Shown here one piece after another: positions 5,450-10,102 of a stretch of DNA of 10,102 bases; within the stretch, counting starts at the first letter, position 1; each line of letters starts with the position of its first letter. The notes below the pieces were generated by a model. The model did no database searches. It was not told the DNA's origin and worked only from the letters and a program-made list of their open reading frames with translations. The DNA lies in contig MNYV01000057.1 of NCBI GenBank assembly GCA_001873285.1, positions 1 to 10,102 on the forward strand, given 5' to 3'. The position numbers and the translations under genes are program-made. This DNA is from Nitrospirae bacterium CG2_30_53_67. Lineage in GTDB: Bacteria; CG2-30-53-67.

Positions 5450-5475
5450 TCAGTTCCCTCTTGCGTTATCTTTTT

Positions 5476-5629
5476 AGGTTCTTCTCCCATTTAGTGGGTA
5501 AAAAGGGTTCGAGGATTCCAGGGTTCAAGGATTCAAGTGAAATACTAAAACGCAAGCAAAATCTCCAGAGAAAGACACTGGAACCCTTGACCCCTGATGT
5601 TTTCATCCACTCTTTTGGAGATGATCTAA
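5476..5629 (-). repeat. Dispersed repeat copy A, upstream of lpdA
   Basis: This roughly 154-bp segment recurs as its reverse complement at 8499-8667, at about 90% identity by eye. The main difference is two extra 8-bp units in the other copy. Its outer part holds CCCATTTAGTGGG, then four 8-bp units of the type GGRTTCRA. A conserved core contains GCAAGCAAAATCTCCAGAG, followed by units in the opposite orientation. The units flanking the core pair as an imperfect hairpin with stem arms of about 20 nt. Read toward lpdA, it ends 26 bp before the start codon. It lies between the gcvH terminator and lpdA and so fills most of the lpdA upstream region. Short open frames across it are by-products of the repeat. 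Confidence 0.85.
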
Positions 5630-5653
5630 AATTACAAATTCCCGTCATGACAG

Positions 5654-5686
5654 AAAAAAAGGGATCCTTTTTGAGAATCCCTTTTT
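5654..5686 (-). terminator. Intrinsic terminator after gcvH
   Basis: A 10-bp stem (AAAAAGGGAT at 5656-5665 with ATCCCTTTTT at 5677-5686) encloses an 11-nt loop. On the minus strand it ends in a run of seven T (5654-5660). It starts 21 nt past the gcvH stop. The opposite strand also ends in five T, so it could act in both directions. Confidence 0.82.
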
Positions 5687-5706
5687 GATCATTGCCAAGA
5701 CATGGG

Positions 5707-7010: not shown

Positions 7011-7035
7011 TCAGTTGTCAGTTGTCAGTTGTCAG
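7011..7035. repeat. Heptamer tandem repeat (TCAGTTG, about 3.6 copies)
   Basis: TCAGTTG repeats at 7011, 7018 and 7025 and ends with a partial TCAG. It directly abuts the phosphatase start codon and occupies the place of its ribosome binding site. Confidence 0.9.
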
Positions 7036-7155
7036 CAAATACAAATCTTTTATGAAACATACCTCTTCTCCAATACTTCAGTCAACCCAAGATTCCAAAA
7101 TGTGATAACTGCCGAAGGCAGCAAGGATAGAGAAAGGCGGGTCATGCGGCGCAAA
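7036..7155. other. Intergenic stretch without recognised genes
   Basis: Between the heptamer repeat and the large palindrome nothing coding is supported. A small hairpin, CTGCC GAA GGCAG (7109-7121), is visible. A promoter for the phosphatase would have to lie here, but I cannot point to a convincing one. Confidence 0.5.
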
Positions 7156-7318
7156 GTGGTCCTGTTCGTAAATGTGGTGGCGTACCGAGAGGGTCGTAGG
7201 GCGGTCTCATCAAGGCGCGCGACTGAGGTGTACCCCCTGTGGTACGCCGCAAGGAGCGAAACGCAGAGGAGGCGGCCCTACGGCACTCGAATACCACCAT
7301 ATTTACGAATAGGGCCAC
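7156..7318. repeat. Large imperfect palindrome, MITE-like element
   Basis: The left arm (7156-7234, 79 nt) and right arm (7241-7318, 78 nt) are imperfect reverse complements around a 6-nt centre. Good matches include TTCGTAAAT with ATTTACGAA, CGTAGGGC with GCCCTACG, and GTACC with GGTAC beside the centre; the mid-arm is weaker. It is richer in GC than the surrounding intergenic DNA. Flanking similarity may extend the arms to about 7137 and 7355. It lies between the divergent phosphatase and mqnE genes. Open frames on both strands are by-products of the palindrome and resemble no protein I know. No transposase or clear target-site duplication is seen, so a non-autonomous mobile element is an inference. 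Confidence 0.75.
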
Positions 7319-7361
7319 TAATGGACGGAGTCCCGGAGCGGCAAGCATCATGCCATTTTCA

Positions 7362-9771: not shown

Positions 9772-9777
9772 AAAGAG

Positions 9778-9930
9778 GGACTTCTTTCATCTGGTGGGTA
9801 GAAAGGAGTCAAGGAGTCAAGGGGTCGAGGGGTCGAGGGGTCAAGGGGTCAAGGAGTCAAGGAGTCAAGGAGTCAAGGAGTCAAGGGTTCAAGGGGTCAA
9901 GGATTCCAGGGGTCAAGTGAAGTGCTCAAA
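9778..9930 (+). repeat. Dispersed repeat copy C (diverged), downstream of mqnC
   Basis: The left edge (CTTCT...CAT...GTGGGTA.AAAGG, 9781-9806) resembles the edge of copies A and B. After the expanded 8-bp array, the segment TCAAGTGAAGTGCTCAAAC resembles the TCAAGTGAAATACTAAAAC of copy A. It has the same orientation in the window as copy A. It runs directly into the four-helix-bundle remnant, which suggests that A and B carry the upstream part of such a gene. Confidence 0.65.
9805..9916. repeat. Tandem array of 14 8-bp units (consensus GGRGTCAA)
   Basis: Fourteen consecutive 8-bp units run without a gap: GGAGTCAA, GGGGTCGA, GGGGTCAA, GGGTTCAA and GGATTCCA variants. Copies A and B of the dispersed repeat carry four units of the same type at the same place, so this is an expansion. 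As 8 is not a multiple of 3, unit changes would shift any reading frame across it. Confidence 0.93.
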
Positions 9931-10102
9931 CACTACAAGGAGTTAAAGGAAGGGCCCCAGTCTTATCAATTATGCTTGGAGATTTACAAATTGCGAATTG
10001 GAGACACAAGTATTACTCGCTGGAGATCTTGGTTATATCAGGGATGAGAAGTTAAAGAGACTTAAGAGTGATATCGAGGAGGTTGAGCGGATGCTCAAGG
10101 CA
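9917..10102 (+). pseudogene. Broken 'four helix bundle' protein gene (23S-IVP/S23 family), cut by window edge
   Basis: Two pieces of one family are seen in different frames. In the first frame SEVLKHYKELK (from 9918) and SYQLCLEIYKL (to about 9993) resemble helix 1 of four-helix-bundle proteins, usually YKxLKVWQK followed by a helix ending YxLT. In the second frame ELETQVLLAGDLGYI (from 9995) and DIEEVERMLKA (to 10102) match the C-terminal helices, where ELETQ and LGYI are family hallmarks. About 55-65 residues normally separate these parts, so an out-of-frame internal deletion has occurred near 9994. The usual VWQ after LK also reads EGP here. The family is a small helical protein first seen inside 23S rRNA intervening sequences; its function is unknown. 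The 3' end lies past the window. Confidence 0.7.

Follow-up and report, generated by a model that had tools for sequence, protein, structure and literature searches.

A probable MITE-like family with an IVP-derived interior in a Nitrospirae genome, and the association of IVP genes with inverted short-unit arrays

Three repeat copies (A, B and C) in the window, by which we mean the whole 10,102-nucleotide stretch analysed, very probably belong to one family of short non-autonomous DNA transposons that is MITE-like and mobile and has an inner part derived from an IVP gene. IVP genes encode four-helix proteins (23S_rRNA_IVP / TIGR02436), and the usual setting of the IVP genes that we sampled was between matching inverted arrays of short units, a strong association that extends beyond this genome. 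The window corresponds to contig C57 in G000, a draft assembly of 183 contigs and 2.36 Mb. Its features are given below, with genomes, contigs and loci elsewhere labelled G, C and L.

5477-5627, + strand: copy A, a two-ended MITE-type element between lpdA-like and gcvH genes
5477-5502, + strand: left end of copy A
5503-5537, + strand: 8-bp units of copy A
about 5536-5577, + strand: core of copy A
about 5578-5595, + strand: inverted units of copy A
about 5601-5627, + strand: right end of copy A
7011-7035, - strand: heptamer array, TCAGTTG x3.6, directly upstream of a CpsB-like start codon
8501-8666, - strand: copy B, two-ended, in the opposite orientation to A, between two CofH/MqnC-type radical SAM genes
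8666 and about 8501, - strand: left and right ends of copy B, respectively
9777-10102, + strand: copy C, an IVP-bearing element truncated by the contig end
9777-9802, + strand: diverged left end of copy C, GGGACTTCTTTCATCTGGTGGGTAGA, assigned from sequence
9803-9917, + strand: array of 14.4 8-bp units in copy C (AAGGAGTC / AAGGGGTC)
9913-9990, + strand: 5' fragment of the four-helix (23S_rRNA_IVP) gene in copy C, with helix 1 SSEVLKHYKELKEGPQSYQLCLEIYK
9992-10102, + strand: C-terminal IVP fragment of copy C, shifted by one base relative to the 5' fragment

Copy C is a 23S_rRNA_IVP gene with an internal deletion that fuses helix 1, out of frame, with the C-terminal part. The initial annotation had described a repeat that runs into a broken four-helix gene, and both frames involved were indeed IVP parts with the middle of the gene deleted between them. 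Translation from 9913 gives SSEVLKHYKELKEGPQSYQLCLEIYKL before departing from the family frame, and translation from 9992 gives CELETQVLLAGDLGYIRDEKLKRLKSDIEEVERMLKA, the C-terminal part of IVP. Positions 70-105 of PF05635 (23S_rRNA_IVP) match window positions 9992-10099 (E=2e-5), and copy C, being a fragment, scores 25.8 bits against the 23S_rRNA_IVP profile, for which the curated cut-off is 33.8. The left end and the four bases following it are identical to the consensus left end at 23 of 30 positions. This places the element start at 9777, one base before the 9778 given initially, while the end at 10102 is a contig break inside the repeat. Near-identical copies of C (97-100%) lie at the ends of contigs C106, C176, C1, C113, C22, C123 and C94. 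Three copies less damaged than C (L028, L030 and L032) give KELKVWQKSYQLCLEIY or close to it and retain the DNA coding for the VWQK motif, which has become EGPQ in copy C.

Copies A and B form inverted repeats of 124 nt that are 94% alike. The initial annotation had read copy A in the same register as copy C, and SSEILKRKQNLQ is indeed found within the 5461-5688 frame. Its suggestion that A and B are 5' remnants of such genes was right in that they derive from the same unit, but both element ends are kept and they are not truncated 5' pieces. The SSE-L stretch, which had been taken for the 5' remnant of a gene, comes from an arm-adjacent motif, TCAAGTGAARTRCTnAAA, that is seen at either element end. 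In copy A this motif stands at the GGTTC-type end, whereas the IVP gene begins from the GGATC-type end. The A/B core shows modest similarity to the IVP gene ends (p 0.008 and 0.019). Considering that both ends and arms are kept, that the core likeness is modest and that the SSE-L motif occurs at either end, A and B are two-armed deletion or rearrangement derivatives of the IVP-bearing unit.

With up to three mismatches allowed, G000 has at least 87 left ends of the element, GGTTCTTCTCCCATTTAGTGGG, and G001, the single congener compared, has 15; the reversed control pattern was found 0 times. A DNA search of G000 with its own sequences located about 20 IVP-bearing places and scores of A/B-type places (at least 40), and 43 core copies were read. 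Upstream flanks of the copies were mutually unrelated and ended at the left end of the element. The opposite end, read inward, is GGATCATCTCC or GGTTCATCTCC. Terminal inverted repeats (GGWTCWTCTCC...AGTGGGT) and inverted arrays of 8-bp units were common to elements with and without IVP remnants. L297 (contig C78) is near-perfect at both ends and lies between the flanks TATTTTAA/TATTTTAA. The IVP-bearing copies differ by internal deletions, ranging from a 198-bp form to shorter joins, while the arms stay constant, and at L003 the reverse complement of the left end lies directly 3' of the gene. No intact IVP gene of the window subfamily was found in the 183-contig draft of G000.

Several smaller features accompany these copies. 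Many A/B copies (L052, L064, L070, L300, L309, L312 and others) have a nested insert of 80-130 bp, sometimes longer (GCCGTCGCAGACGG...GCGGGACACGCGAAGCGTAACC), and L068, L107, L108, L114 and L308 have a small hairpin (CCCCGTTAGAGGACAACCTCTAACGGGG or close) at the arm-adjacent TTCAC/GTGAA site. A separate repeat of about 165 bp with 26-bp inverted ends (AGTGGTCCTGTTCGTAAATGTGGTGG), found at window positions 7155-7319 and at L310, is probably another MITE. G000 also encodes an IVP relative of 209 codons with a '4helix_suffix' domain (TIGR04258) at L006 (C145, 3688-3897, - strand).

The suggestion in the initial annotation that repeat and gene spread together as a unit was borne out by target duplications and empty sites, which demonstrate by comparison that the family has moved. 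In a single fixed register, 9 of 28 two-ended copies without IVP sequence had an AT-rich 8-bp target duplication matching at 7 or 8 of 8 bases, while other registers (offsets 0, 2 and 3) gave 7/8 in one copy only, L052. The IVP-bearing copies have the same terminal inverted repeats as A and B, and those with two ends included duplications of 8/8 (L023 and L029) and 7/8 (L030 and L032). In copies A and B, which are older, the duplication has decayed; copy A matches at 4/8 bases, so that no clear 8-bp duplication remains there. Empty sites, a check proposed along with that suggestion, were sought by aligning element-free joined flanks through the junction in G001. Three were located for A/B-type copies, at L071, L051 and L114 (94%, 83% and 79% identity across the junction), each with a single copy of the duplicated stretch. 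The site of L069 in G001 is split by about 330 bp, and a family search finds an element there too.

These properties place the family close to MITEs, which are likewise about 150-410 bp long, high in copy number and devoid of a transposase, with terminal inverted repeats and a fixed-length, AT-rich target duplication. Shared terminal inverted repeats, the 8-bp duplication and three empty sites were all found in the window family. It differs from MITEs in its interior, an IVP cassette with arrays of 8-bp units, and no autonomous partner was found. No autonomous element or transposase with matching ends was detected in the 183-contig draft, and the family therefore looks like a MITE mobilised in trans. 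The ends and duplication resemble those of the ISL3 family, although we do not class the element as ISL3. No PF01610 (DDE_Tnp_ISL3) transposase was found in G000, and the ISL3 transposases of relatives lack these ends and were rejected as partners. An IS beside a copy in contig C107 (L299) was likewise rejected, as it is unrelated and was inserted adjacent to the element. The likely course is that a DDE-type transposase encoded elsewhere cuts at the element ends. The IVP product would then not be the transposase, and its dispensability for movement may explain why the gene decays in most copies. The interior would derive from a four-helix (23S_rRNA_IVP / TIGR02436) cassette, that is, an IVP gene flanked on both sides by short-unit arrays in inverted orientation.

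To place this cassette in a wider context, we sampled 80 IVP loci from GTDB genomes of many phyla, of which 79 were testable; they were chosen as best matches to a six-sequence alignment and are therefore not a random sample. The 300 bp upstream of each gene were compared with the reverse complement of the 300 bp downstream, with 273 shifted positions at the same loci as controls. The median arm match was 39, versus 19 in the controls (p=1e-34). It exceeded the control 95th percentile at 67 of 79 loci and the 99th at 60, while at 12 of 79 the 95th was not exceeded. In both flanks, only lags 7 and 14 showed elevated autocorrelation (0.40 and 0.38, respectively, vs 0.26). The units vary between cassettes but match between the two arms of one cassette: the median match was 39 with the own arm and 16 with foreign arms, and the own partner was the best of 76 in 45 cassettes.

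Most units are 7 bp long. Those of the window family are 8 bp long, and its unit AAGGRKTC exceeds the 7-bp AAGGATC of L174 by one base. A loose skeleton, NYNRGKN, is common to the heptamers (3.9 bits of information versus a shuffled maximum of 3.4), and the upstream arm had more G than C at 68 of 79 loci. The median outer length of a cassette was about 470 bp. Other IVP genes in G000, G001, G005 and G007 also have short units on both sides, of different sequence; one of the IVP genes, L001, scores 128 bits against a cut-off of 24 for the 23S_rRNA_IVP / TIGR02436 profile. The initial annotation had tied the gene to one upstream repeat and named intact genes without it as evidence to the contrary. 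Such genes exist (L001, L002 and L073-L076), yet arrays of other units flank them on both sides. The link is therefore between the gene and inverted short-unit arrays, not one particular sequence. The unit type of the heptamer array at 7011-7035 also flanks IVP genes at L175, L212 and L214. That array resembles the TAACTGA arrays of Beggiatoaceae (PMC4679880).

The breadth of this pairing bears on whether the window elements are an ordinary MITE family that captured an IVP gene once in the lineage as a passenger, with no deeper link of gene and array. We consider this very unlikely. Many copies do lack IVP sequence, and the ends and duplications are of the DDE type, but the same pairing recurs with different units at the 67 of 79 loci from many phyla, which refutes passenger capture as a full account. 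How the genus acquired its DDE-type ends may still be described in this way. Direct flanking duplications were not in excess at generic IVP cassettes. This means that the mobility of the window family cannot be extended to them, and that the 8-bp duplication is a property of the DDE-type ends of this genus rather than of IVP cassettes in general. Five phage cassettes were searched for with empty-site patterns, which had no match at the DNA level, nor did the flanks of a Brucella cassette when sought in plasmids. No IVP was found in INPHARED phage records, and only 21 were found among 2.9 million viral contigs. Cyanobacterial plasmid IVP genes are located in gene clusters and were outside the flank scoring. 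Of two genomes compared at the carA-carB interval, one has an IVP cassette there, whereas the other has an inverted repeat that is GC-rich and unrelated (G006:C10:7844-8333 vs L145, G007:C165).

How the two arms of a cassette stay alike can be followed in a few related loci. L146 and L147 are one site in two related genomes with matched flanks, and here both arms switched together to another unit. L334 and L350, on related phage contigs, show a weaker joint change. On a viral contig (L351, 1-760), two tandem IVP genes with one array between them represent a duplicated cassette. These cases argue against the arrays being mere targets, such that IVP genes insert preferentially into pre-existing heptamer hairpins and neither make nor carry them. 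IVP-less heptamer arrays are common in some bacteria, as two reports describe (PMC4692102, PMC4679880), which would suit such targeting. Still, at both pairs of loci the arms acquired a new unit and the gene remained in place, and the tandem duplicate carries gene and arm together, so we regard targeting as unlikely.

Seven cassettes lie inside DNA-methylase reading frames. At L001 (G000, contig C159, 600-2210), the cassette sits within a frame of 536 codons that is open throughout and aligns with plasmid methylases without the insert (GEPDI...GLDIYDPTTG). In three loci from other phyla (L148, L149 and L150), N6_N4_Mtase proteins carry the insert at this same position, L175 has one elsewhere in such a protein, and L160 and L188 have inserts in other methylase types. 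In all seven the host is read in the same frame relative to IVP, with no stop; that relative frame is stop-free in only 4 of 74 other IVP genes. The methylases without an insert amount to an empty site at the protein level, which argues against RNA excision there. The host methylase frame at L001 (600-1470) also contains other in-frame short repeats, PHRTLAPEGKSPQPLFGKGG, PPHPGPLPRRGEG and PTPLNPPLRRGEDKGG, which are reminiscent of the in-frame palindromic elements of Rickettsia.

The question of excision arises from the intervening sequences (IVSs) of 23S rRNA, in which an S23/IVP ORF of the same family (PF05635) is likewise bracketed by stem-forming inverted repeats. These IVSs have been called selfish, with an unclear origin (PMC4990558). 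The cassettes described here could be similar RNA elements, with arrays selected as an RNA stem, cut from the host transcript by RNase III, and an IVP gene in the loop; they would spread through RNA, for example by a reverse transcriptase acting in trans, given the kinship of IVP and Avd. Besides the shared protein family (PMC4990558), the predicted folds agree with this: the sense RNA of the Brucella cassette forms a long stem whose loop contains the ORF (z -6.9), and copy B RNA forms one long hairpin on the element's strand (z -5.5). IVP also weakly matches the Avd model NF033474 (E 1e-7), with a score of 32.1 that is below the cut-off of 80.

However, neither the window nor any of the 80 IVP loci lies in rRNA according to Rfam. 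The cassettes are instead dispersed between genes or in methylase ORFs, and their arms, unlike those of the IVSs, are arrays of 7-8 bp units. The window family has 8-bp duplications of the DNA type, and excision would make it needless for seven cassettes to keep the host methylase frame open. Among mismatches between arms, 118 keep pairing through G-U in the sense RNA and 151 break a pair, so G-U-keeping changes are not in excess and this wobble test leaves selection for an RNA stem unsupported. We therefore find an IVS-like RNA element quite unlikely. That the mismatches do not favour G-U despite strong folds speaks for a process at the DNA level, which may be what keeps the arms of the general cassette alike. 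Most simply, this process would be replication slippage combined with template switching from one hairpin arm to the other, and an IVP oligomer might bind these arms.

Other known systems share parts of this organization. REP/BIME sequences with RAYT (TnpA-REP) are likewise scattered hairpin repeats with a related parent gene that the same repeats bracket. In contrast to the Y1 transposase of that system, the gene here encodes a four-helix protein, and the window family has DDE-type duplications. Avd of the diversity-generating retroelements belongs to a homologous four-helix protein family (PMC10053308). The general IVP cassettes further resemble the GGGAATC and TAACTGA heptamer arrays, which are also tandem 7-bp units in intergenic DNA. 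Cyanobacterial STRRs are heptamer arrays as well. The solved IVP protein 2gsc is XCC0516 of X. campestris. In the accessible text of the reports, 70-75 inverted pairs of the GGGAATC heptamer are described for Xanthomonas (PMC4692102) and TAACTGA arrays for Beggiatoaceae (PMC4679880), and that text contains no mention of the IVP family (S23, four helix). No description of the link between IVP and arrays was found in the open-access literature. Since subscription papers were outside this search, the link can only provisionally be said not to have been described before.

A broader reading, which we hold possible but doubtful, is that IVP genes are the parents of a widespread and unrecognised class of hairpin elements, each cassette making and keeping its own inverted heptamer arms. 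The reported heptamer arrays (TAACTGA, GGGAATC and STRRs) would be IVP-less offspring. The cassettes themselves would insert through a hairpin route assisted by IVP, leaving no target duplication and at times landing in frame within DNA-methylase genes. The finding of the gene between matching inverted arrays at most loci ties the function and spread of IVP/S23 to the question of how bacterial intergenic heptamer arrays arose. The genus offers a family that has spread recently and whose empty sites allow movement to be tested, and cassettes nested in frame within methylase genes are a second testable oddity.
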